Shown: in pieces, positions 27,333 to 60,583 of the stretch | Position numbering within the stretch: position 1 is the stretch's first letter | Layout of the letters: every line of letters begins with the position of its first letter | Origin: Owenia fusiformis | Taxonomy: Eukaryota; Annelida; Polychaeta; Sabellida; Oweniidae | Assembly: GCA_903813345.2 (NCBI GenBank) | Contig: CAIIXF020000007.1 | Coordinates: forward strand, 15,048,714-15,112,713 | Reading direction: 5' to 3' | DNA: 64,000 bases | Made by a program: the position numbers and the translations under genes | The notes under the pieces: generated by a model | What the model saw: only the letters and a program-made list of their open reading frames with translations | Told to the model about the DNA's origin: nothing | Database searches by the model: none

Positions 27333-27406
<74 letters not shown>
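27333..27406 (-). tRNA. tRNA-Asn (anticodon GUU)
   Basis: A 74 nt cloverleaf with all parts in place: acceptor GTCTCCG/CGGGGAC, A box TGGCGCAATCGG, anticodon loop CTGTTAA with GTT, and T arm GGTGGTTCAAGCCCACC carrying a good B box. There is no intron. A TTTT terminator follows within about 15 nt on the minus strand. It lies between SEC11 and MSL1. Confidence 0.95.
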
Positions 27407-41516: not shown

Positions 41517-44500
41517 GCATATTTTTCGCCTGTTCCCTCGCCTCCTTTCCAGAACTTAATTTTTTGAGCTAGCTGACTTGGCCGGTTCTAGAAATTAGCA
41601 AAAAATATAACATGTAATCAGTTTATAATTTCAATATTAATATGTATGTACTCTAATCCTTGATGTATTGTATTGAAAAATAATTTTTACACTTAGATCA
41701 GAACATTCCTGCTGGATGAAGAGTTGTATCAATCATTTAAAAAAGGCAATTTGGAAACATTAAGTTATGTTGTGCCAAATGTTTCCACTATAGTTTTGCT
41801 TTCTAATGGAAATAGAAATATTAAGTGTACTTTACAATGAAAAGTACTAAAATCAACAATGGGATCTGTCTACAGATTAGTATACAGTTACACATACATA
41901 CCCTGTTCTGTTGCATTAAGTAAAAAAAATTATATTTAGTTTTTAAAACAAAGATCATGTCTAAACTACAATTTAAATTCCCTGAATACATATGCTTGTA
42001 CAAATACCTTAAAATGATAATGTGAGTTTTCCGCATTTGAACTCATTCTATCCACAGGCTACTACCTACACCCTCTATATGTCAATATAAATATTCAGAA
42101 CATTCAGCCAAAAGGAATATGTCGTAGCTTGTGATGCTATAGTGAATATGCGAACAATTAAATAAGCAATGCAGTTTTGAAGCAGAAAATATATGCTGAG
42201 AAAATGTTATTTTATCAAAACTGCAAACAAGTCCCTTACCAGACAGTTTTTCTATTGATGGCTCTTTGAATAACTGTGCAAATGATCCTCTACTCTTGCA
42301 AGCTTATATACTAACCTCAATGAGCCACATTCCAGCCCTGGAGTTTGGATTCTTGTAGGCGTAGACAATTCCCCCGACCAATGCTGCTACCAGAGCCACA
42401 AGCAGGACAACAATAGCTACTATGCCAAATGGACTCATCCCACCTGCAGGAAGATTTTTTTTTTTTTTATAAAATCAAACTTTATTAATAAACATATTTT
42501 ACATTACATGCATACAATTAGATAAAATACAAAAAATACAATTATAGAAATTTCAAGTTACATTACATCTTTCTGATCATTATCTCAGTATCAAAAATTG
42601 CTTTTACATTACAAGCTGTATTGACCCTTTTTTTAAAATCATGTATAGATTTTTTAATTACCAATGTTTTAAGTAAATCTTCTTTTTTAACAATTGCATT
42701 TCCAATTTTTTGATCATTTGTAACATTTACATCATTCCAAATTGATTTAATACAGTCACAATTGATAAAGAAGTGGTCAATGTCATCTTTTACATGTGCG
42801 TTACAAAAGTTACAGATGTCAGAGTTTTCTATGTTACATTTCTTCAAATAAATATTTTGAGGGTAAATACCATGTAAAATTTTCCATTGAATTACCAAAA
42901 GGGTAGTATCGGTTGTACATTCAAAAAACTGAGACCAGACTTTATCGTTTAGAACCTCACCATTAAATTTTATGTCACACTTTCTCTCTAAAACAATTTT
43001 TGTTCTCACAATTCTTGTGTTTAAAAGATGGCTCTCAATGCCTTTAAAAAATAATTTTGTACAAGGTGTTTTCATTTCATATTTGATAAGGAGATCTTGT
43101 GTTTAATACCACCTGCAGGAAGATATGTGTTAGAACAAGGCTGTTGAAGATGCCCCTCAAAGCTTTGCACTAAATTCTAAATGTTACATATTGATGTTTG
43201 GAAGCAATGAACATAAATCATATTGTTTAACAGATTTACAATGAATGTTTGTTCGCTTAATAATAAGCGACTAGTATTTCATTTCAAATATCTTTATTTT
43301 TACTATTACCAAAATAGACGGTATACATCTCAAGAACATACACAAACATGTATATACAGTGTGTAGATTTAATCAATGGGTCAGAATGCAATGTGGGAAA
43401 AGTGCAATGATTTTGATAAACTTCAGTGATATATTTCAGTTTAATTTTATTTCATTAAGCTTCATTTGGACACATATGAAAACTTATTGATGTCAATATC
43501 TTAATTAATGCCATATTGCATTCTGAATCTTTCAATTTAACTAAACCATGATGTTATAGAAACAAGACAATTTTAAAATGTACATGTTCCTTTATTTATA
43601 ACATTAACACATATTGAATGATCAATTAATATTTTAAGACATGTATCCAAGATATGAGAAACTTAAAATATCGAATTTCTAATTACAGTTTTTGATACGC
43701 TACATCTGTCTCCTTTATTTTCATAACAACTTATTCAATTTTTATAAATCATGAAAATTCTTTAATGAATCTAAATAACTTTTCATTGTTGTCATTTTTG
43801 GGTTGAGAATTTTTTGGGAATTTTGCATCAAGCATACATGCCTCAAAATACCTAGAAATCACAAAAATCATGAAGTTATAACTCCTACCAATGGGGTAGC
43901 TTAATAAATGGGTAGGGGTCATACATGCACATTTTGGCAGGGACATAATAATCAAATATAAACACAACACAAATACCACTCAATGATCTAAAAAACAAAA
44001 ACTTAAAGAATCAAATCTGACCATATTATATCGGAATCAAAAAGGAATAAAGAGGGTTTTTGAAATATCAAAATCAGAAATACAGAGTTTTTTCATCAAA
44101 CCACATTTTCAGATTACTTTTTGGTTAGCTGCAGCAAAATAAATTTGATCATATTAGTTGTAGGCTATATAATGAGGCTAATATCAATGACTGTGCAACA
44201 ATCAAGGAGCACTGTAGAAGCCTATAACATATCGTAAAATTATGGTTGAAAAATAGGATGGCGTAAAAATGGGGAAAATTCATTTGGTTCATTTCATAAT
44301 AGGAACTCATTGGAAGAATCTACTGAGCATGTTGTTAAGCATGCATGATGTCATAGTACCTTGACCTGGGGTACCATCTAGTTTATCCCCCTTTGGTTCA
44401 CTACCTGTTTGGATGCCAGTTCCCCCTGAACCTCCTGGACAAACCTTGAGATCCTAATAATGACATACACATAAACACTAAGAAAAAAAGTACACATCCT

Positions 44501-47500: not shown

Positions 47501-50500
47501 CTTACAAATCAATGAACCTTTCAGAAGCATCTTAACTAAGCATATGGCAATATGTTATTGCTGATGATAGGCTGCAATGTAACATAATTATTACCACCGG
47601 ATCACAATCTCCAACATTGTTATCAACTGCAGCTTGGCTATTCCCACCAGCAGCAGTATCAGCATTACCAACTGTTACTTGAGCAGGTTGACTATTTATG
47701 GTAGTCACATCAGGGTCACTACTAATAGCTTTTGTAGGGTTAGCAATAGAAGTGGAGCGGTCATCACATTGTGTGGTACTCTGCCATGCCTGATTTGAAT
47801 AATCTCAACTGTTTTATGTAGTTCAGAAAGGTCCTGATGGTGTTTAGTTAGTTTTAGCGTATAACATATCCATCTATTATCCAAGCAAACACAATGATTT
47901 CAAAAACTAAGCTAGTCACCATTGATCAAATATGATAATTTATTTCATGAAAGTACGTACCAATGAAATAAATGACACATCAGGTAGATAACCAGCCTTC
48001 AAATTGTTTGTACAACCATTTACTAACCACAACCTAACTTAACTAATATTACACCTGCATCAATAATCAAATTAAAATGTGAGGAATCAAATCTAAATGA
48101 ACACTGAAATCCAACATAGACAAGTTATATAAGTTATATGTCCTCTTTGTTATAATATGGCACAGTAAAATCTGTCCAAATACTCCTAATTCTAAATTTG
48201 CATTGAGAGCACTGGGTTACAATGGGACAGGTATATTACAAAATGTTGGAAAAATGAAATCATTTTAGTGTCTCGAGAACAGCTATGGTTACACAATTGG
48301 CGTCCAGGAGGGGTGCGTTTGGTGCGGCCGCACCCCCTTTTTGAGCCAATCCAGAGGACATTGTTCATGGTGCTGAGAAGGAGACTCAGAGGAAAGAAGA
48401 AAATTTTGCTCTTGTGAAAGAGATGGAGAAGGAATGCTTCAAAGGCATCACATGCAAGTTATGATGAAGGAGACTTTTAGTTATAGATGCACCCCTCTTG
48501 GAAAAACCATGGGGACACCCCTGAACACTGAACAAATATTTCATCCTATTGAGGTGAAGACCTGTGCATTTTTCACAAGTAATATTCCACAAAGCCTATT
48601 GGGCTCTTGGAATATCAGGTATTCATGAAAAAATGAAATGAAATATTAGTTTTATGTTATATGACTATCAATATTACTATTCAATATTTTTAAATCATAT
48701 TATAAACACTGAGAAATACATTTGTATAGGTTCACACATTTGTTATGTACACCTACTCTAGACAAAATAAATTCCCAGGAATGATGAATAAATCTATTTA
48801 TTCACAGATTGCCTGCTATGACATAATAAAGATGGCCATTAGCCAATGAATATCTGATAACCTTTTTAACAAATAATATAATTGAACCCTTCACAGTGAC
48901 ACAGTAAAACTCATTATACAATATATTTACTATACAATGTATTCTGCTATACAAATCACAACTGTTATCATTTGTGGAGGCTACTAAAATAACTGAATTT
49001 CAATGACAACCAAATCATTCAGAATCAGTTAATCCAAAGGAAAACACATGAATGTAAACTGAAATATTATAATTTATAAATATCTCCAAAACCTTAATGC
49101 TAGTATACAAATAAGCAATAACATGATTTTGTAAAATCAGGGCTACACTAATCAAATTAAATGTTTAGCATTATTGAGTTTTAATTATGGAATAACATTA
49201 GCTAAAATACGGCTAACATTGTGAAACAAAACCAATAAATTAAGAGTCTACAATAAAATATGATGCACATATAATTATCACTATATTCTATACTTGTATT
49301 TTGAAATGAAACCAAGAGGATATGCTAAACATTTTATTTATTTACCATTGCCCTTAGAAATGTTGTATACATCAATAAATTGAAACACAACTGTTAAATT
49401 ACAGATTAAACATGTTCATCAAATTACATAAAAATAACATTCTGTAATAATTGAAATCAAGCAATAGTGCTTATGGTATACTCAAAATACATATATATTA
49501 TTTATATAGGCACAGGGCTGGGTATTTAAAGGTAATCTTAATTCTAGTTTTCATAAATATACAAGATTAGGGTCTAAATACTGAACATGTATTGACTAAT
49601 CACTTAAAAAATAAATGTTCAGCATACCTTAGCTGGGCAATTCTGTTGCAGCCATTCCTGTCTATTTCGATCCAGGCCATTGGAGCATCTCTTTAGAGAA
49701 CCACACCAACCACAGTCAAAGCCTATTTTTGCCTCAAGGCATTGTGTACATGACTTCAGTAAGTTGCATGCTGGAATTCAATTCATTTCTTATTGATTTG
49801 TTATACAAGACATGGGCAAATCTGGTACAATGACACATGCTACAAGTGTATGATGTTTCAACATTTAGTTATAGATAAATTTTCACTCAACAATAACTTT
49901 ACTTTTTCTGCACTCTACAGTTCTTTATTCTACAATAACTTGTTTTTATTGAGTTCTTTACTCCCACAATTAATTATCTACAAGATAATTAATTGTAATC
50001 TTGCAATATATTTTGCAGCATATTGTGCAAAGTACTTCAACATGAACAACACTGTTCTTTTCTCAACATGCCGTTTCTCAAATAAATTTGGACATGCTCC
50101 ATGTACATAAATATTTTTCATGCATCTATCAGTTTCACCTACATATAGTTTCAAAAACAGGTGGAAATTTTAAAAAAAACTATGCAAAGTGATAACAATA
50201 TGCAGTACAACCTGTGTATATGCACACCTTACCAATCTGAACACCTTTTAATGTGAATGCTTTTTAGGCCAACTTTATCTGCTATAGACTTCCAGTATTA
50301 ATAATCATAGAAATGTGAACTATGGAAGGCATGGCATTTGGTTTAGATATATTTTCCTGTATCTATATAGACATAAACATCACTGACTGCAAAACTATAA
50401 TAAATATTCCAGTACTAATGAGAATGAAAGTATGTATCGACTCAAATCTGCTACATTAACTGATTGACAAATGAATAATGAAGATATCTACAATTATGTG

Positions 50501-53500
50501 TGGATTCAAAACTGAAAATACTTTTGTGTTTGCTACTTTCAGGGTTGGACTACATTATTTTTGATGTTTTTCCATTATTGCCTTGTGTGCTTTCTCTTTG
50601 CATATATACAGAGGTAACAATAACATGCCTACATGGTTAACAACAAACTTATTAGCATTAAGCATATTCAACATAGTATAGAATAGAACATTGTCATAAG
50701 AAATAGAAAAACTGTCAAGCTTTGGCTGTAAAACGTTTAAAAATGAACATATATAATCAAAAATTAACACATGTACTAATAATAGGAAGGTTTCATGCTT
50801 TTAGCTTTGCAACTGTTATAACATGTAACATATTATCAAGTTCAAGTCATGTTTTTAAAAGCATGCCTATTCTGTTTGAAAGAAGAAAATTATAGAGATG
50901 AATAATACAGCATCAATTGTGTAAATGGAGAAAATTTGTTTTAATAAAAGGCATTCATGCATTGCAGACTGTCTTGTTATAAACAACTAGTAAGTTATTC
51001 TGGATGTAAAACATGGGGTTATATTGACCACAGTTGATGTGTCTTAATGCCAAACTAAGGGAAGGGTAGCAATGGAAGCCATCGTACTGTCGTCATTCTA
51101 GAGGCAATGTATTGGTTTAGTATGTGTAGAAATCCTCAACTATGGAAATGTTGAAACTTTCATAACCTTGTTACCAAAAGCTTGTCAAATAATTTACAGC
51201 ATGGCCTGAAAGTTTTAACGTTTCACCAATCAAAGACAACCTCATCATTAGGTATATGGTTGTCTAGCATTCCACTTTTAATGCATTCAAACGCAGCAGC
51301 TTATATGCAAAATGCATTCAGCAAAATTTGGGAGCATTCCTTACTCACTTTTCTTTGGAGTCATTTGAATGGCAACATTGTTATGAATATATTTCAGTTT
51401 ATCTTTTCGTAAGTCCAGTCTGTGGTATTCATATATGGTGCGACCGATTATATCTGGAAAATTTCAATGAGGCTTGTTGGAGCGGATATAAGAGAATTTT
51501 CAAATCCTTGAGTTTTGGTAGTCATAACTTACATTTCAGTGGTGGGAATCTAAAAATTCCACTGAAGAAGTTTTACTTAATGTCAAAAGTTATGACTGTA
51601 CCAAAACTAGAAAGGACTCAGATATGCTGGTACAGTGTAATGACACTGTCCAGCAAATGGTCAGGCATATCCTCAATACTTACTTGGCAAAGGGGCAAAT
51701 AGTACAGAAGACCCAGCAGTTATGAATCTGTATTTATCAGTGGCAATGTCCACCCTGTGGTATTCATATATAGTCCTGCGCTTGATGTCTGAAAACAAAT
51801 AGAATCAATCAAACCATGCTATCATGCCATGCAAGAGAATAACAAATAACATTAAATCAATCGAAACGACAAACAGGCAGCCAGTTTAGAATCATGTATG
51901 TTATATCTCTCTGCTCAAGCTTTTCAAAACATGTTCAGTTGGGCAGAACCTTATTCGAAAGATACATGTCCATTTGAGCCCAAACACTAAACACTCCCAT
52001 TGTGTTTTACATTCAGTGTCATATACGTTGAGATACATCAAAATGAACAGATTTGCACGTGAGATAACTACATGATATAACATGATTCTCAAGTAGCTGT
52101 ATGATTGAAAAAGAAGACCAAGGAAAACCTTCATAGGTGAGAATATATGGTACCGAACATAAACAGCTACTTAAAGAACAAAACGAGAACATTACATCTA
52201 GACAACAGAGGCCTGGTGTATCCCATCATCCATGCAACTTCACAATACCTAATATGGAAATAATATCCCAGGATGCAACATCCAAAATGGCCACTAACTT
52301 ACTAGGTTCTGGATGGAATATAATGCTGTAGTTTTCACTGATACTTATTTCTTCTGTTGAAATCACAATCCTGTGATATTCGTAAATCACCCTGCGTCTA
52401 ATATCTATTGCAATTGTGTTATGATTAGTATGTTTGTTGTATCATGTCAAATATGCCTGATTATAAAACATGTGTTTATGGAGTACCCTCTATAATGACG
52501 AAAATTGAAAGGTGTTCTCTACATATTAGTAAGTTGATGAAATTTGGTTCTTTTGAACACTGTTCCAAGTGGAGAGGATTTACTTAAAGTTGTTCTATCA
52601 GACGGGTATAACTATGCTTGCCAATATAGGCTGAACATGAGGGAACTTTTTTCCAAGTAAGAAGGCAATGCATTTGAGATGATACATAATATATAACATA
52701 GATTTGATATCATGGCAACTTAATATTGATAACGTCATTCATACATGAGTAATTAGAATTTAAGTGGAAATGAAACATGATGATAATAGGCCTGTTATGG
52801 TTAACCTCTTGAATCCCAGAAAAATTGGTTGAAACCAGATAATATTTCATTTTTGCCACCTTTTGACATTTTACTTCATACCTTTACAACTTAAGACGCT
52901 CAACTTAGTACTATTTTTGTGTAAATTGGCAGTTGAAAATTGTTCAAATAAGAGCTATTATAGTGAAAAATTTTATGACGGATTTTCTCGTCACTCTGGG
53001 TTTCAAGGTCATCTCTGAGGTGAAGAGAAATCTCTTCACTCCAGGTAGTCAAGAGGTTTAAGTCCTGCCACTTTTTAATTGAATCCAATGCTACTGTATA
53101 AGAGTTATTGTGGTTAGTAAGCAAGATTTTTACAAATAACCAATGCAATATATTGTCATGCTGAACTTATTCAAACTATTCACATTTAAGGAATAATCAC
53201 AACCTGACATTAAAAAGTAATACACAGTTGATATAAGCAGTACATTATGATATGCCAAAAGGCCAGGTCAGATAGCGATGTGTCATTATTAAGTAAATTA
53301 GAATTGAGAGGTATTAACATGTTTATAATAACAATATTACACACAAATACCATTTCATGGTCTACAAGCTTAAAAAGGGGATATATGATATAGAATATTT
53401 TGAGCTGGCCCCTCTGATAATAACATTTATTTATTTGTTATTAATTTGGTTCTAAATCTACATCTATTTCTCAATTATGCATTTTCTATTTTTAAAGATT

Positions 53501-56500
53501 TTGTGACCTCCTACATTAGTATGGCAACTGGAATTGTGTGTTAATTCCTGTTTACATTTGGTGTTTTATGTTGTAATAAAGGAACAACATTTAGATTAAC
53601 AGGTTTTAACACACTGTCAAATGAACATTTCCAGTTGTCAAACTTATTAGGAAGGTTGTATTGTTAATTATATATTATACCTGCTGCATACAATTTACAT
53701 GATCAGATCCACATTGAAGCATTTATACTAGCAGAAAAGCTATACTTATATTAACATAGAATCTCAACAAAAGATGTGAGAAACCAACACTTTTGCACAA
53801 AATAAAACAGGATAATCTTAATGCTGAATAAATCGAACCAATAACCAAATAAGCTTAAGAACCATATTTCAATGAAAATAGAACAAAGTGACCTTATTAT
53901 TTTGGCGAGTTAAGTTTTTCCATACAAATCTCATCACCAATTTTGTCTGTCATACAGCTGTTTTAATGTAATGAATATGAAATGAAAAACATCACAACCA
54001 ATAATTCCACAATCATAAATATCCAACAAAATCGTTCAACCACCCTCATCTTCCCTCATGTTACTCACTGAATGCTGGAAGATATCGATCTAAGTAATAA
54101 GCATCCGAAATGCCTACTTTTACTGGATGATTTTGTGTGGACAATTTCGAAACATCGCAAGGTACCTATAACATGAAGATATAAGAGATCTGAGATATCA
54201 GGAGGTTATATGTATGTACTTACTGTATTCTGGGATATATTTGTCATAATAATAAGCATCTGAGAGTCCAATCTTTACTGGGTGGTTGTCTGTGGAAATC
54301 TCATTCACATCAAATGGGACCTAGAAAGCAACAGCATATACACTAAACAGGATAGAAAGCCTTATCTATTTCCTTATACTAGAATATATGGGGTATAAGG
54401 CATTGAGCTCTGATGGTAACTGAACATAAGTAATTGACATCAACACCTTGCTGGAGAACTCTTTCACATATTTTGGTTTATCCCACAAACCATCTTTATT
54501 CCAGTTCAAAAGGACCAATATGATATGGGGAATGATTCTCAAAGACAGCCCTTTTTCTAGGGACAAACAAATATTCTCATTGAACAACAAATATGAGGAG
54601 TGTCACAGTAAGCCTTATTTGTTACACGAAAAAGCTTTTGAAGCAATACATAGGATAAACAAGGTAGCAATTGATCCAGCCACAGGGATGAATGGCCAAA
54701 CTTACTATTCTCCAGTAAAGTATCAATATAAAATGCATCAGACAATCCAACAGTAACCTTGTGGAACTCAGTAGATATCTGAGGTACAGGAATTGGCACC
54801 TTGAAAAAACATGGCTTTTAAGTGAGAAATCAAAGTGCAACTTTGAGGAATTCAATGAATATCTAAGGTATAGGACTTGGTACTTGAATAAATCATGGCA
54901 ATAGAATTAAAACAAGTGAAAAATCAAACAGTTACTTAGGGAGAATATCTGAGGTATAAGAATCGGTACTTTGAATACAACATGGTTTCAAAATTATTGA
55001 CTCTTAACAGGCATCTGGCACAAACAAGCCTCAGAATCATCCTGAAAGGCTCATTTCAACAGTAACAATTAATCACAAGGCATTAATGTGACAAAATGTC
55101 ACCACCTAGTTGCTCACAATATTATTAGTTAAATTTTAAGTCAGATTTACATTTTTGAGAACTTGTAGATGATTTTGAAAAAAAATTGGTCAATTTGAAA
55201 CAAGTTGAAAAAGACCTTTTTTGAACCTGAGAAAGTCATTGAAGGTGAAATCTCCAATCTAAAGTCAGATTTAAACTTCTGAGAAGGTGAAGACAATTTT
55301 GAAGAAAAAAATTGGTCAATTTGGAGCAAGTTGAAAAAAAGACCTTTTTGACATTTTTTGACCTTGAGAAGGTCAAATCTAAAATCTTAAGTCAGATTTG
55401 AACTTCTGATAACTTGTAGGTTTTCTTTTAAAAATTTGGTCAATTTGAAGCAGGTTGAAAACAAAGACCCTTATGACCTTGAGAGGGTCAATGAAGGTCA
55501 AATCTAACATCCAGGTCAGATTTGAACTTCTGAAAACTTGTAGATGACTTTGAAAAAATCTGAAGTCGGTCTAAACAGTATTTGTTAAGTTATTGCAAGT
55601 TGTAAGAATTTTTTACAGACACCAACCAGCGATCGCTACCACAAAAACGGAGACCATAACAATATGTCACCACTTTTTGGTAATAAAAGCCATTATCATA
55701 TCACTCGACTTGTCTCCTCTATAATAAACTAAATATTTTTACACCCAAGATAATTGTCCCCATGCTGATATGAATTTAGGGGTTTGAATTTGGAATGGTA
55801 TATACATGTATACATGTACACTGTACTTCCATAAATGTACAGAATTCAAAAATATTTTAGATACAACATGTAACAATTATCTTTAACTCAACAGGCAAAT
55901 AAAGATTTTTTTGGTGACATACCTTTTTGTAAGAGAACATAATAACATTGTTGGACATGAGTGTTGCCTGGAAATGGAATGCACCATCTGAAATACATAA
56001 TATAACTTCAATCATTAATAGGAATACAGAATTGATATTATACAAATATTTAACTCTATTAAGGAGAACAACTGAGCATCCATGAGGGGTTTTCCAATAG
56101 AGCCCGAAAATGAATGTAAAAAGGTAATTAAATCGCTCAGAATGTTGGAAAGTCGAAGTACAGTATATGACATCATATCCTTTTGACATTTCTACAGCAA
56201 CATAAAAACATCAACATGACAGAATGCAACAAACTGATTGCAATTACAAGACTGATCAGTTGGTGTTTTCTAATTAATAATCCTCATATAACCTCATATA
56301 ATCCTCATATAAGACATTGACTTATAGAGTTCACAGTGAATACATAAAATTGCACTTACCATCAGGATGATCTTGGACAAAGACATCCTTCCACTCCACC
56401 ACAAAATGGGTGCCTAAAATATAATAAAAATGTTTCAGTAATACTATACTAGTATATGTCCATTAAAGGGAGTAGAAGGAATGAAATTAATTATTACAAT

Positions 56501-59500
56501 TTACAGTATTTTTGCTCTCATCACTCCATGTCATGTTTGGTTTTTAAAAAGTCAAGCAGTTCTAACTTCAGGATAATCTCCAATATCTGATACCCCTTTT
56601 TCAATTAAAATGAATTTGCATTTTAAATCTTCAATATCTTCTATATTTGACCAAATATCTGAACTCCTTTATCAAAAAATAAAAAATTTGATTGTTATGT
56701 ATACATGTGCATGCTTTTTGAAAATATTGCTCCCAACACTTTACACTCTCTATCCCCTCTAATTCCTTTAAGCAAGTGGTTATATAAGTGGTAAGCCACA
56801 ACCATTACCCTTGTCTTCCTCTTAGTGATATATTGAGCTGATCTGGTCAACCAGGAGAAATATATAGCATAATAGATGAGTAGGAATTCAGAAATAAATG
56901 GGAGTTTAATATTTTTTTTGACCCCACCAAAATTTTGGACTCATTGGAAAGCCCCAATACCATACTTTAGGAAATAATAAATAAAAAAAAAACATAAAGC
57001 AATGAGACCTTCCAACAGATATTTTAAAACACTATAGTGTAACTGGCTACAGACAACCAAAAGGTTGCGGAATTTATTTTGAAAGAGATGTGCTTTTAAT
57101 AGTGTATGTTCAATTAGCTTTTTTAGAATATTAGAAAAATCCACTCTGTCATTCTTCTACAAAAGCAGAATGGGATATTAACTTTATTACTCTAGCCTCT
57201 AGAAATAGATTCAGATGAGAGCTTCAATTAAAAGGCGAGGGCTGAACAAAAAGTTTAAGGCTGAAAAATAAGTTCAGGTATTACAGTTCAATGTTCTCAG
57301 CAGCTATTTGTTCAGTTGTAGTAAGTAGGTGCAAAATTCTTCTTTTCACAATTTTGATTAAAGTTGAGGCCAATTTTTCATGATTTTTCAAATTTTTTGA
57401 ACAGACTGCAAATTGGTGGTTTTAATATTGTAGGTGTAAACTTATTTTCAAATGTCAAGTATGTGCACCCCTTGCTTCAATACTGGGAGATCACCACATG
57501 CAAATTGTAATGAAAGGGAAATGAAAACAAGACTTCTCAACTCACAGTGAAAAGTATTCAATTGCATAAGGCAGACATTTATTATGACACCACTGTGATA
57601 AATCTCTCCCAAGTGACATGTACAAGCTATTGTACTAGGCTACTACTCGACATGCCAATAAAGAGCCAGGCTGTGCAAGTTGCTTTGTAGATATAGCTTA
57701 TGTTTATGTGCATTCTCATAAAAGATCATAACAAAGGTAAGGAGAAAGCAGCAACTCCAAAGAGGAGCAAATCTCAATGAGGGATTTGTAAATTATATAT
57801 ATACAAAAATAATAATGCGCCTCCACTTACTATTTTTAGCATAATAAATATGAGATGTGTTGCCTCCAAGTCTTGTGTCAAAGTTTGCCATGAGTGGAGC
57901 AATGTACTGAGTAGCTGTGAGCCACTGGTGCAGGAACGGACTCATGTAAATGAAACCTGAAAATGCAATTAAATTTTCTCAAATTTCATTCAATATCAAA
58001 GCTAAATGTGGGGTGGGAGTAGATAACATTACAAGAAAAAGAAACGTCTAAGATGAAGCCAGTCATAAAGAAAACAAGGCATTATCATGCAAAACGAACA
58101 CAAACTGCCAAACAAAGTCTGCAATAATGTTTGAATCTATAACAGTATGTCACCACTTCTGGTATTGACATAATAGTTATAATAGTAACAAGGCATTAAC
58201 ATGACAAAATGTCACCACCTAGTTGCTCATAATATTATTAGTTCAATCTTAAGTCAGATTTGAACTTCTGAGAACTTGTAGATGATTTTGAAAAGAAAAA
58301 TTGGACAATTTGAAAAAAGACCTTTTCGACATTGAGAGGGTCATTGAAGGTCAAATTATTTATTTGACCTTAAGAATGTCATTGAAGGTCAAATCTATAG
58401 TCAGATTTGAACTTTTAAGAACTTCTAAATGATTTTGAAAAAATGGTCAATTTGAAGTAAGTTGAAAAAAGACCTTTTTTGACCTTGAGATGGTAAATGA
58501 AGGTAAAATCTGAAATATAAAGTCAGATTTGAACTTCTGATAACTTGTAGATGATTTTTTTTTAAAAATTGTCAATTTGAAGCAAGTTGAAAAAAAGACA
58601 TCACTGAAGGTCAAATCTTAAATATAAAGTCAGATTTGAACTTCGGAAAAAAAGTAGATGATTTTTAAAAAACTGGAGTCAGTCTAAACAGTATTTGTTA
58701 AGTTATTGGAAGTTTAAAGAATTTGTTACAGACGCCAACCACCGATCGCCAACCACCAACCACCGATCGCCAACTGCCATCACAAAAAAACGGAGATCAT
58801 AACAATATGTCACCATTTTTTGGTGGTGACAAATAATAACAATGACATTAATTTTACACAATACAGTGAATCTACATTGTAATATACCTGGGAGTGCTTA
58901 GCAGCAATATACCTGTAATGAAACCTTCATAAATCAGATGAAAACTGTATGCAGAATCTGATTTATGACATTAATGGTATTGGAAAAATTTAATCAAGAA
59001 ATAACATGGTGACATATAGCCTAATATACATTATATGGTACACTCTCTGAATAGTGGTAATGAAGACTATATAATAATAATGACATTACTCTGCATTAAG
59101 CAAGTTAAATAAAATTAAATAAAATATCATACTGGCTTAAAATTTGTCAATGTTACATCCCTATTATCGATTTTTACTCCTAGAACACACTTTACAATGT
59201 CAAGACTAAGAAATCAGAAAAAATCTACAAAAATGTTACTTTCATGATAAATCTGTAACTGTACCATTGAGGAGTGTAATATATAAAAGGCATTAATATG
59301 ACAAAATGTCACCACCTAGTTGCTCACAATATTATGGGTTCAATCTCAAGGCAGATTTAAACTTTTGAGAACTTTTGAATGAGTTTGGAAAGAAAAATTG
59401 GTCAATTTGAGGCTAGTTGAAAAAATACCATTTTGGGCTTTTTTACCTTGAGAAGGTCATTGAAGGTCAAATCTTAAATCTAAAGTTAGTTTTGAACTGT

Positions 59501-60583
59501 AGATGATTTAAAAAAAAAATTTGGTCAATTTGAAGTAAGCCCCTTTTTGACTTTTTTTTTTACATTGAGAAGGTCATTGAAGGTCAAATTTCAAATGTAG
59601 TCAGATTTGAACTTCTGAGAACTTGTTGATGGTTTTGTTAAGCTATATGAAGTTTGTTAAAATATAGGAAGTTGTAAGAATTTGTTACAGACACTGATTG
59701 CCAACTGCCACCTGCCAACCGCTGTCACAAAAAAAGTCAAAAACAAGTCACCACTTTTGGTCATGACATGATAATGCAAACAGAATCTGTAATAGGATCT
59801 AACCTAATGTTGCCTTGCATCAAGCAACTGCTTTGAACACATACCTGTACCCCTGCACCAATTTTTAAAAAATTAAATCACCTACAAGTTCTCAAAAGTT
59901 CAAACCAAACCCAAATCATGCAGTTTTTCACTATTCTGAGCACTTTCCCAGGAATTTTTAAAATAGTGACCCCCCTCCTTGGCAAAGGGCTGGCTTCAGG
60001 CCTGGATCACAATCCCCCCAACAAGTATTTTCTGAACCTGATAGATTGATTGCAGTTATAATGAGTTCAGTGGCATCTCAACTTATCTCAGTCATGACTA
60101 ACAGGTTATTACTTTCACATTTATTGCTGCAAATTGAGGAGCAGAAATAATAATCAAACGTAGATTCTTCAGTTCTCATTTTCGTTGTGGTACTCAAGCA
60201 TCTTTTTAACAGGCCATTCTTGAGTGCCTCTCAAAGGTTAATTTCTAGAGAATAAATCTGAAGTTCTACTTTTCAACGATTCCATACATTAGGTCATATA
60301 TCTCATTGATTTAGAAATTAAAGAGATCAGTAGTCTAAGTATATTTTTATGTTAATCTAATGTAGAAAATATCACACGATGGGTTAAAAGCAACCCTAAT
60401 ACATCTTTTCAAATTGTTACTTATGTGTAATTGCCACTGTCATCAAAAAGCTGATTTACAGTGAAACTGCTTCTCCAAGATTATACTGCTCTATCAATGT
60501 ACATGGAACTTACCTCCTGTTGCTATGACGACCTTTTTCTGTACATGGCCATAAAAGTTGAAGTCAAATGGGAGGTCCACAAC
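41486..60583 (-). CDS. PLXDC: Plexin domain-containing receptor (PLXDC/TEM7 family), 5' end outside window
   Basis: Single-pass cell-surface receptor; vertebrate members bind PEDF and nidogen. Exons: 60583-60514, 57956-57831, 56413-56360, 55987-55923, one of cluster A (54799-54706, 54320-54224, 54165-54069), one or more of cluster B (52404-52303, 51788-51684, 51453-51349), 49770-49628, 47789-47595, 44453-44360, 42443-42316, 41587-41486. With A2 and B2 this gives 1179 nt (392 aa), all phases matching. The order is a nidogen-like region (VVDLPFDFNFYGHVQKKVVI, MSPFLHQWLTATQYIAPLM, THFVVEWKDV, FHFQATLMSNNVIMFSYKK), NHPVK..GLSDAYYY and RRTIYEYHR segments, a PSI domain (CNLLKSCTQC, FDCGWCG, RCSNGLDRNRQEW), a Thr/Ser/Ala/Asn-rich stalk, a membrane helix (FGIVAIVVLLVALVAALV) and a short tail with NRPSQLAQKIKFWKG. 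The signal-peptide exon must lie beyond 64000. The donor at 47595 has a second GT 3 nt upstream. Confidence 0.94.
42456..43108 (-). mobile_element. 5'-truncated LINE inserted at PLXDC transmembrane exon acceptor
   Basis: A 653 bp insert bounded by the 16 bp direct repeat CCACCTGCAGGAAGAT (42440-42455 and 43109-43124). On the minus strand it ends in a poly-A run, with AATAAA (complement at 42481-42486) about 15 nt before it. It encodes 170 residues of an L1-like ORF2 C-terminus (43075-42563): TTLLVIQWKILHGIYP and the zinc-knuckle CNFCNAHVKDDIDHFFINC. The target duplication is perfect, so the insertion looks fairly recent. Confidence 0.93.
43072..43112 (-). other. Predicted LINE-derived alternative last coding exon of PLXDC
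   Basis: The target duplication left a second acceptor (CTTCCTGCAG ending at 43113) upstream of the LINE, with the native branch-like TTCTAAC before it. Splicing exon 44453-44360 to it adds GIKHKISLSNMK in place of the second Gly, and then TGA. The receptor would then end before the membrane helix. The LINE AATAAA at 42486-42481 could polyadenylate it. Predicted from sequence only. Confidence 0.5.
45306..45475. mobile_element. Mariner-type MITE, 170 bp
   Basis: Termini TACAGCGTAGGCCAAAAAAA and its inverse TTTTTTGGCCCACCCTGTA, in TA-rich context. These match the TACAGGGTG..CCAAAAA consensus of Tc1/mariner-like elements. No coding capacity. Located in PLXDC intron between 44453 and 47595. Confidence 0.8.
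46030..46121. repeat. Tandem duplication, 51 bp unit
   Basis: ATGCCCCCTATAACATTCAA followed by TACAAACACAT(G/A)TTATC occurs at 46030 and again at 46081. Two copies, nearly identical. Confidence 0.85.
46720..46832. repeat. AAGT-type microsatellite
   Basis: An imperfect tetranucleotide array (AAGTAAATGAGTAATAAATA ... AAGCAAGTAAGTAAATAGGC) in PLXDC intron DNA. Confidence 0.75.
51349..52404 (-). other. PLXDC: PLXDC alternative exon cluster B (three homologous exons)
   Basis: Three tandem exons for the segment that follows the A segment. B1 is 52404-52303 (102 nt: IRRRVIYEYHRIVISTEE...IIFHPEP), B2 is 51788-51684 (105 nt: IKRRTIYEYHRVDIATDK...VLFAPLP), B3 is 51453-51349 (105 nt: IIGRTIYEYHRLDLRKDK...IQMTPKK). 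Each begins with two bases that complete an Asn codon from the A exon and ends with a single A before GTAAGT or GTGAGT. Acceptors are AATAG, TTTTCAG and TTTCCAG. All lengths are multiples of three, so skipping or joint inclusion would also stay in frame. B2 looks closest to the vertebrate segment. Confidence 0.88.
51511..51608. repeat. Nested hairpin between PLXDC exons B2 and B3
   Basis: Outer arms AGTTTTGGTAGTCATAACTT (51511-51530) and its near-inverse AAGTTATGACTGTACCAAAACT (51587-51608). An inner pair TTCAGTGG/CCACTGAA lies at about 51535-51566. It could be a tiny MITE or an RNA structure in the intron separating two alternative exons. Confidence 0.75.
54069..54799 (-). other. PLXDC: PLXDC alternative exon cluster A (three homologous exons)
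   Basis: Three tandem exons for one ectodomain segment. A1 is 54799-54706 (94 nt: VPIPVPQISTEFHKVTVGLS, DAFYIDTLLEN), A2 is 54320-54224 (97 nt: VPFDVNEISTDNHPVKIGLS, DAYYYDKYIPEY), A3 is 54165-54069 (97 nt: VPCDVSKLSTQNHPVKVGIS, DAYYLDRYLPAF). Each starts in phase 0 after a good acceptor and ends one base into a codon before GTAAGT or GTGAGT. Every length is 1 modulo 3, so including two or skipping all would shift the frame; only one per transcript works. A2 and A3 are closest to each other and are separated by only 58 bp. Confidence 0.9.
54829..54985 (-). repeat. Two decayed copies of PLXDC exon A1 5' half
   Basis: Two tandem relics (about 54829-54898 and 54930-54985) upstream of A1, spaced about 85 bp apart and in the same orientation. 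Both repeat the A1 acceptor region and first 30-45 coding bases. On the coding strand they keep CCATG..TATTCAA then TACC...ATACCT.AGATATTC. The first has lost a base and reads into TAG; the second keeps VPILIPQI-like coding but lacks the rest of the exon. Confidence 0.7.
55075..55680 (+). mobile_element. TGTCACCACC-family MITE
   Basis: Head CACAAGGCATTAATGTGACA, four diverged internal units (TTGACCTTGAGAAGGTCA type), tail ACGGAGACCATAACAATATG with TCACCACTTTTTGG; the final GGTGACA is lost. Located in PLXDC between exon 55987-55923 and cluster A. Confidence 0.85.
58073..58173 (+). mobile_element. Very short TGTCACCACC-family copy
   Basis: Only about 100 bp: head AACAAGGCATTATCATGCAA and tail TAACAGTATGTCACCACTTC with TGACATAATA. 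It lies directly before a longer copy at 58190. Confidence 0.65.
58190..58828 (+). mobile_element. TGTCACCACC-family MITE
   Basis: Complete ends (AACAAGGCATTAACATGACA ... TTTTTTGGTGGTGACA). Four to five internal units with GACCTTGAGA and GAAGGTCAAATC, then a GCCAACCACCGATCGCC tandem near the 3' end. In the PLXDC intron between the 60583-60514 and 57956-57831 exons. Confidence 0.87.
59289..59770 (+). mobile_element. TGTCACCACC-family MITE
   Basis: Head AAAGGCATTAATATGACAAA then ATGTCACCACC; about three internal units; tail GCCACCTGCCAACCGCTGTC and a decayed GTCATGACATGATAA. Same PLXDC intron as 58190-58828. Confidence 0.83.

Follow-up and report, generated by a model that had tools for sequence, protein, structure and literature searches.

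Does a PLXDC-type receptor gene of the annelid Owenia fusiformis choose among alternative exons at two neighboring positions of its ectodomain, and how many receptor forms could such a choice produce? The window analyzed here, a 64,000-nucleotide stretch of contig CAIIXF020000007.1, contains on its minus strand three homologous exons (A1–A3) followed by three further homologous exons (B1–B3), which led the initial annotation to predict nine ectodomain forms. With a probability of roughly 75%, based on sequence features, we read the gene as carrying two neighboring clusters, each of three mutually exclusive exons, derived from old, separate single-exon tandem duplications.

Identity and structure of the gene

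The assignment to the PLXDC family made in the initial annotation was supported by exons that matched, in order, the N-terminal YY motif, the PSI domain (PF01437, E 8.6e-9), and a single membrane helix. The nidogen-like ectodomain contains FYGH, TATQYIAPLMANF, GLSDA, and IYEYHR, which we take to be the typical motifs of this part of PLXDC proteins, as judged by comparison with human PLXDC1. The human sequence used throughout is provisional; it agrees with Y481 and C500 of PMC4303762. NIDO gave no Pfam match, and an exon for the cytoplasmic tail (terminal Cys, conserved Tyr) was not found in the window by tblastn or regular-expression searches. One tRNA was identified with Rfam at the gathering thresholds. 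The features are as follows, all on the minus strand and in the order of transcription.

60512–60580, minus strand: constant PLXDC exon; the coordinates cover only the stretch that matches FDFPFYGH...IATGG (61% to provisional human PLXDC1 135–157)
57832–57960 (edges approximate), minus strand: constant PLXDC exon LTATQYIAPLMANF, with a single match in the genome
56360–56413, minus strand: constant exon U2 GTHFVVEWKDVFVQDHPDG, 54 nt
55923–55987, minus strand: constant exon U GAFHFQATLMSNNVIMFSYKK, 65 nt, phase 0 at its end
54706–54799, minus strand: variable exon A1, 94 nt
54224–54320, minus strand: variable exon A2, 97 nt
54166–54223, minus strand: A2–A3 intron, 58 nt, possibly too short for efficient A2–A3 joining (criterion of PMC5740500)
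54069–54165, minus strand: variable exon A3, 97 nt
52303–52404, minus strand: variable exon B1, 102 nt; its acceptor is weak, with 6 of 15 pyrimidines
52231–52236, minus strand: TGCATG, a motif of the Rbfox type that begins 67 nt downstream of B1, in the following intron
51815–51833, minus strand: a group of three GCATG, one of which is TGCATG, 26–39 nt upstream of B2
51684–51788, minus strand: variable exon B2, 105 nt; its acceptor is stronger, with 11 of 15 pyrimidines
51349–51453, minus strand: variable exon B3, 105 nt
49628–49770, minus strand: constant exon with the PSI (plexin repeat) domain, 143 nt, entered in phase 1 (PF01437, E 8.6e-9)
42316–42441 (edges approximate), minus strand: exon for the transmembrane segment (38% to provisional human PLXDC1 425–461)

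Splice sites and reading frame

The six variable exons, which span 51349–54799 in the order AAABBB, were recovered with the splice sites and matching phases that had been described for them. An acceptor AG precedes each of the six, and the donors are GTAAGT in A1, A2, B1, and B2 and GTGAGT in A3 and B3; all six donors are thus of the U2 type, with no mixture of U2 and U12 sites. The A exons run from phase 0 to phase 1 and the B exons from phase 1 to phase 1. In the available text of PMC3228551, mutually exclusive exons are recognized as neighboring, homologous internal exons of similar length and equal phase, with conserved splice sites, and the A and B copies, which are flanked by constant exons, share these features, with a weak acceptor in B1. 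The acceptor of the constant PSI exon is as poor as that of B1 (6 of 15 pyrimidines).

When exon U was joined through one A and one B exon to the PSI exon, all nine A × B combinations formed one open frame, with Asn as the junction residue in every case. Omitting A or using two A exons broke the frame of exon U, as shown in three examples with B3 (10 stops for A1+A2, seven for A2+A3, and six with no A). The proposal that an A exon is used exactly once is therefore supported, because any other number of A exons shifts the frame. Since the lengths of all three B exons are divisible by three, the frame is silent on their number, and the nine forms are a prediction that assumes a rule of one B per transcript. 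By arithmetic, one A exon with any of the eight B subsets keeps the frame and gives 24 forms.

These lengths leave room for an alternative in which only cluster A is strictly exclusive and the B exons behave as cassettes, skipped or included in multiples, to give more than nine and up to 24 frame-preserving forms. Every subset of the 102- and 105-nt, phase 1-to-1 B exons is in frame, and the introns between them (514 and 230 nt) impose no steric block; the introns between the A exons measure 385 nt (A1–A2) and 58 nt (A2–A3). Against the cassette arrangement, the IYEYHR core and the identical ends retained in all three B copies suit a single structural segment that is replaced rather than added, and such features were reported for only 90 of 16,180 exons on the Drosophila X (0.56%) that are not spliced exclusively (PMC3228551, in the portion available). 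We consider cassette use of B unlikely.

Under two mutually exclusive clusters, every mature mRNA would receive one A and one B exon. Exclusivity in A would be enforced by the frame, with none, two, or three A exons causing a frameshift and mRNA decay, and the 58-nt intron may assist by hindering A2–A3 joining. Both a donor-to-branch-point distance of <50 and frameshift with decay are recognized exclusivity mechanisms in the available text of PMC5740500 and PMC6071210. In B, where the frame does not enforce the choice, it would presumably be made by a splicing regulator.

Age and constraint of the exon copies

Pairwise protein identity was 48–62% among the A exons and 38–50% among the B exons, the closest pairs being A2–A3 (62%) and B1–B2 (50%). 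Because the exons are ordered AAABBB and the closest pairs differ between the clusters, the copies point to separate single-exon duplications. The same observations bear on a possible coupling between the choice of A and that of B, which would leave the gene with about three forms of the receptor instead of nine. The presence of three copies in each cluster would suit coupling, but the order is not ABABAB, the closest pairs are unlike, and nine of nine joins are open with the same junction Asn, which makes coupling improbable.

The copies are old yet constrained at the protein level. The pN/pS between copies was 0.29–0.61, with synonymous sites near saturation, and in a neutral-decay simulation (4000 runs for each of the six pairs) the frame stayed open with protein identity kept at the observed level in ≤0.0008 of the runs for each pair. 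The highest pN/pS values, 0.57 and 0.61, were obtained in the pairs with B3, which could be under less constraint. That observation, the weak acceptor of B1, and the form of A1, which falls one codon short of the other A exons and is without the HPVK stretch, are what could be cited for a gene that uses one A and one B exon while the remaining copies are relics or are very rarely spliced. Frame breaks in the extra copies were looked for and none was found: all six exons remain open, with intact GT–AG sites and phases, despite the near-saturated synonymous change. Together with the simulation, this renders the relic explanation improbable. An assembly duplicate was also rejected, as the copies are unlike at 34–53% of bases.

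In searches of the 498-Mb genome at E values up to 10, the matches of A2 other than itself were confined to A3 (E 5.7e-9) and A1 (E 0.033), and those of B2 to B3 (0.029) and B1 (0.0295), although gaps or excluded stretches of that genome may hide others. Profiles built from the six copies themselves revealed no convincing fourth A or B copy in the window (next-best E values among the matches listed, 5.1 for A and 0.92 for B). A scan of viral contigs for relatives yielded none that was confirmed. Two other exons of the PLXDC gene are single in the genome, and no second copy of six constant PLXDC exons was detected in the window (best second match, E 0.07). Leftovers of tandem gene duplication and exon groups for trans-splicing can mimic exclusive exons (type C in the available text of PMC3228551), but given these single constant exons and the lack of a repeated-group arrangement, such an origin merits hardly any weight.

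Position of the variable segment in the receptor

Deletion mapping of human PLXDC1 assigned PEDF binding to residues 128–242 (domain B) and oligomerization, or self-association, to residues 293–359 (domain D) (PMC4303762). When these published boundaries were transferred to the provisional human PLXDC1 sequence, A and B together corresponded to about residues 238–303. They would thus fill mainly domain C and its edges, between domains B and D, and the PEDF-binding domain appears to be encoded almost wholly by upstream constant exons. Domain C is assigned no function in the available sections of PMC4303762. The earlier suggestion that exon choice tunes the ligand-binding face is not supported by this placement. 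No solved structure of the nidogen-like part of a PLXDC protein was retrieved by a sequence search of the PDB, which returned plexins, MET, and MST1R with matches in their PSI/pre-PSI region; one further match looks like chance and was discarded.

The proteins produced by two exclusive clusters would vary in a segment of ~66 residues that links the nidogen-like, ligand-binding part to the PSI part. Among the B forms, only B1 carries an N-glycosylation sequon (NYS). The most likely targets of the variation would be self-association, the coupling of ligand to self-association, or a glycosylation specific to B1, and not the main ligand contact.

Candidate control of the B exons

The leading candidate for a regulator of the B choice is a protein of the Rbfox type that would act on the GCATG sites. 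In the reported position rule, a downstream site promotes an exon and an upstream site blocks it (PMC5840707, in the part available); such a protein could promote the weak-acceptor B1, which has a site downstream, and block B2, which has three GCATG within a 20-nt stretch upstream. Between 49771 and 55922, GCATG occurred 15 times in the sense and three times in the antisense direction, where its frequency in the remainder of the window predicts 5.3; it was chosen after inspection of eight motifs, of which only GCATG stood out. Elsewhere in the window, up to 12 GCATG occur in a stretch of equal length on either strand (183 such sliding stretches for each strand, none overlapping the region). 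The TGCATG hexamer alone was not enriched, with four occurrences against 2.6 expected and a count at least as high in 78 of 300 simulations. An Rbfox-like RRM exon was recovered as a partial match (72% over 36 of 78 amino acids) with one TAG inside, and the Fox-1_C model matched neither here nor in any control. Rbfox-type control of the B1/B2 choice is an exploratory lead suggested by motif positions.

RNA pairing of the docking/selector kind did not exceed that of shuffled sequences in any of four layouts, 26, 16, 34, and 12 of 40 shuffles reaching the observed energy, in a test of low power that covered parts of the introns in one species.

Significance and relation to known systems

If the exons are used in this way, one gene could yield about nine receptor forms. 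PLXDC receptors are poorly understood, and the variants, if used, would mark human domain C as a segment worth varying for an animal. The locus would also offer a clean test case of how exclusivity is maintained in a pair of neighboring triple clusters when the reading frame polices only one. A long shot is that the nine A × B ectodomains form a combinatorial code of homo-oligomer preference, by which cells that carry matching forms associate or respond differently, with Rbfox setting the B digit; it is equally speculative that this code would amount to a miniature Dscam-like recognition system built into the self-association switch of PLXDC.

The kind of system is known, but we found no description of the PLXDC instance: in agreement with the initial annotation, a choice between tandem or mutually exclusive exons in PLXDC was nowhere described in the literature searched, and PLXDC is absent by name from the main text of PMC5740500 and PMC9741552. 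Human PLXDC2 is listed among the candidate alternative-junction peptides of platelets in the accessible part of PMC2654914. As in Dscam1 and in the muscle myosin heavy chain of insects and lophotrochozoans, homologous internal exons in matching phase lie in tandem, in several clusters from each of which one copy is presumably chosen; in the same genome, one myosin exon is present as a tandem series of 14 copies, each preceded by AG. The PLXDC gene differs from these in belonging to another family, in having three copies per cluster, and in showing no detected docking/selector pairing; the use of its copies is predicted. Human genes with several exclusive clusters, such as CUX1 (PMC5740500, in the part available), likewise combine more than one cluster per gene with frame and short-intron constraints. 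Rbfox-regulated exons such as Mef2d alpha2 (PMC5840707, in the part available) have in common with this locus a UGCAUG-type site downstream of the promoted exon and upstream of the blocked one, whereas the PLXDC locus is characterized by motif positions. The closest relatives in protein architecture are the PEDF receptors PLXDC1 and PLXDC2 (TEM7 and TEM7R), which, as judged from the provisional human sequence, share the ordered YY motif, nidogen-like part, PSI domain, and membrane helix; what sets the Owenia gene apart from them is the triplication of the exons for the segment between the ligand-binding and PSI parts.

Structure of the PLXDC-type gene and its variable exons

A PLXDC-type gene crosses the window on the minus strand, with its N-terminal exon lying further along the same contig (C7), one of 525 contigs in the 498 Mb genome searched. 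Its exons, in the order of the gene, include constant exons (U2 and U) upstream of two triplets of homologous exons (A1–A3 and B1–B3) and a constant PSI exon downstream. A tail exon was sought in the window and not found.

Exons of the PLXDC-type gene, in transcript order (window coordinates unless prefixed)
C7:15116425-15116565, outside the window: N-terminal exon, HSYY...RYWVDI...SESHRVAS (sequence match)
60512-60580, minus: exon matching FDF.FYGH...IATGG (sequence match)
57832-57960, minus: TATQYIAPLMANF exon (sequence match)
56360-56413, minus: exon U2
55923-55987, minus: exon U
54706-54799, minus: exon A1
54224-54320, minus: exon A2
54069-54165, minus: exon A3
52303-52404, minus: exon B1
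51684-51788, minus: exon B2
51349-51453, minus: exon B3
49628-49770, minus: PSI exon (Pfam PF01437, E 8.6e-9)
42316-42441, minus: membrane-helix exon (sequence match)

Beyond the PSI domain, the family assignment is a lead that presumes a human PLXDC1 sequence that we take to have 500 residues, with Tyr at 481 and Cys at the terminus. The Y481F and C500S constructs of PMC4303762 agree with this sequence.

The two triplets were proposed in the initial annotation, and the exon lengths, splice sites, and phases described there all matched on re-examination; the observation itself is borne out by the coordinates, the splice sites, and the open joins. The introns measure 1123 nt (U–A1), 385 nt (A1–A2), 58 nt (A2–A3), 1664 nt (A3–B1), 514 nt (B1–B2), 230 nt (B2–B3), and 1578 nt (B3–PSI), and the splice sites of the six exons are all U2-type. 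From U to PSI, every one of the nine A × B combinations kept an open frame, with Asn at the A–B junction in each.

Several other elements lie in the introns of this gene or elsewhere in the window. Related tandem repeats of 124–125 bases, of the GGTCAATTTGAAGCAAGTTGAAAAA type, occur in two PLXDC introns (55131-55558 and 58391-58623), one tract being located just upstream of the A cluster. An intronic open frame of 179 codons (42566-43102, minus), upstream of the membrane-helix exon, has a zinc-finger-like pattern and, judged by eye, resembles the terminal part of a LINE reverse transcriptase. The window also holds a tRNA gene (27333-27406, minus; Rfam RF00005, 67.7 bits).

Copy number, age, and constraint of the triplets

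When the whole genome was searched at E values up to 10, the A2 query matched only A1–A3 and the B2 query only B1–B3. The TATQYIAPLMANF and N-terminal exons each had one match genome-wide, and second copies of U, U2, PSI, the helix, and two early exons were sought in the window with no match better than E 0.07; "single" here means single within the sequence searched, as the genome may contain gaps. The copies differ at 34–53% of bases and are neither chance resemblances nor an assembly artefact. Between copies, pS was 0.70–1.08, indicating that synonymous sites are near saturation, and pN was 0.22–0.44, with pN/pS ratios of 0.46 (1–2), 0.33 (1–3), and 0.29 (2–3) for the A pairs and 0.37, 0.61, and 0.57, respectively, for the B pairs. 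In simulations of neutral decay (4000 runs for each of the six pairs), openness by itself was not rare (0.12–0.21 of runs), but the fractions that combined an open frame with a protein similarity no lower than that of the real pair were 0, 0, 0, 0, 0.0003, and 0.0008. The simplest reading is that the duplications are old and were retained under protein constraint.

The exon order is AAABBB, and the closest pair is A2–A3 (62%) in one cluster and B1–B2 (50%) in the other, which together indicate single-exon duplications that occurred separately for A and B and disfavour duplication of an A+B block. The tripling of each of two neighbouring exons, with no such multiplication among the other exons tested, suggests that selection favoured variety in this part of the receptor.

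The alignments confirmed that a fixed core is accompanied by a strongly altered remainder. The A copies have V1, P2, V5, S9, T10, H13, V15, G18, S20, D21, A22, Y24, and D26 in common, and the B copies NI..R.IYEYHR; past column 12, each B pair agrees at just 4–7 of 22–23 positions. Net charge (K and R vs D and E) is −3, −4, and 0 for A1–A3 and −1, +3, and +5 for B1–B3. B1 alone has an N-glycosylation sequon (NYS), and A3 alone a cysteine.

Position of the variable segment in the receptor

In the human PLXDC1 numbering that we assume, exon A would start at about residue 238 and exon B end at about 303. The human domains are A (19–127), B (128–242), C (243–292), and D (293–359); PEDF binding is mostly lost on deletion of domain B, copurification with the receptor is lost without domain D, and PEDF acts via the dissociation of receptor oligomers (PMC4303762). 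On the assumed numbering, the variable segment therefore comprises domain C with about 5 residues of B and 11 of D, and the binding domain would be encoded almost wholly by constant exons. The suggestion that exon choice tunes the ligand-binding face was consequently not upheld, since the variable exons would map mainly to domain C, not to the PEDF-binding domain B. Exon choice would instead be expected to alter self-association, or the coupling of ligand to self-association.

Possible control of exon choice

Inclusion of zero, two, or three A exons would shift the frame. Consistent with the initial claim that two or no A exons break it, stops appeared in the U coding frame in all three examples joined with B3 (A1+A2, 10; A2+A3, 7; no A, 6). 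If its branch point has the usual spacing from the acceptor, the 58-nt A2–A3 intron would have a donor-to-branch-point distance below the 50 nt taken as the steric limit in PMC5740500; the 385-nt A1–A2 intron is not constrained in this way. Each B exon is a multiple of three nucleotides long, and decay is therefore unable to enforce the choice of B, a point about frame-neutral lengths also made in PMC6071210. Docking–selector RNA pairing was not seen in four layouts covering parts of the introns of one species, a weak test (26, 16, 34, and 12 of 40 shuffles reached the observed pairing value).

Eight motifs were compared with a Markov background across the introns and six variable exons (49771-55922), and only GCATG exceeded it (14 seen vs 5.3 expected; 1/300 simulations); TGCATG by itself did not (4 vs 2.6; 78/300). 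Against the rest of the window, there were 15 sense and 3 antisense GCATG (expected 5.3; sense Poisson P 3.8e-4, uncorrected for the choice among eight motifs), one of the 15 overlapping the PSI acceptor. Sliding control stretches of equal length that did not overlap the region (183 per strand) had means of 5.0 and 5.7 on the two strands and a maximum of 12 on each, so the excess is not far beyond local clustering. A TGCATG starts 67 nt downstream of B1, and three GCATG lie 26–39 nt upstream of B2. Such triples within 20 nt were found twice when both strands of 93,901 bp were scanned (the window, the myosin locus L008 described below, and the further stretches L009 and L010), against 0.03 expected for independent sites; the other is at 44327 on the plus strand, opposite the PLXDC gene.

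Pyrimidines occupy 6/15 acceptor positions at B1 (weak) and 11/15 at B2 (stronger); the constant PSI acceptor also has 6/15. Binding of Rbfox downstream of an exon favours its inclusion, and binding upstream of it represses inclusion (PMC5840707). As an exploratory scheme, B1 might be used in Rbfox-rich cells, with B2 as the default elsewhere; this scheme leaves the control of B3 unexplained. A partial Rbfox-like RRM match was found on another contig (C9:4004839-4004946; 72% over 36/78 residues, with one TAG inside); the Fox-1_C model had no match, and controls likewise gave none.

Tandem myosin exons in the same genome

A myosin-head search of the genome led to an array at C9:37985600-37995500 (L008), where a myosin heavy chain exon (..TYSGLFCVVINPY..MPPHLFSI.., minus; Myosin_head positions ~27–81) gave 14 matches at E <1e-8, including the seed copy, 13 of them across the whole exon core and one partial. 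On the acceptor side, an AG lies immediately 5' of the same Thr codon in all 14. The copies at 37990730 and 37989941 differ at one of 56 residues, and such near-identity indicates that the array is still growing or being homogenised. Within it, a minisatellite-like repeat of ~103 bases (C9:37990234-37990490) gave three identical short matches at 103-base spacing. Judged by its sequence, the array resembles a mutually exclusive cluster of very large size, and the myosin genes of bilaterians that include molluscs and annelids have been predicted to contain clusters of this kind (PMC3912159). The presence of at least one other tandem-exon array in this genome makes functional exclusive exons in PLXDC more plausible.

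Comparison with known systems

In the open-licence literature, as far as its texts were accessible, no description of tandem or mutually exclusive exon choice in PLXDC was found among the papers listed, nor were papers on invertebrate PLXDC exons, and a term search found no PLXDC in the main text of PMC9741552 or PMC5740500. PMC2654914 tabulates human PLXDC2 among candidate alternative-junction peptides from platelets, so that some alternative splicing of PLXDC2 has already been proposed; "mutually exclusive" is absent from its main text. Nine predicted forms in a linker-like segment are interesting and testable, not startling. The kind of system is already known; the gene and the place are new within the literature searched.
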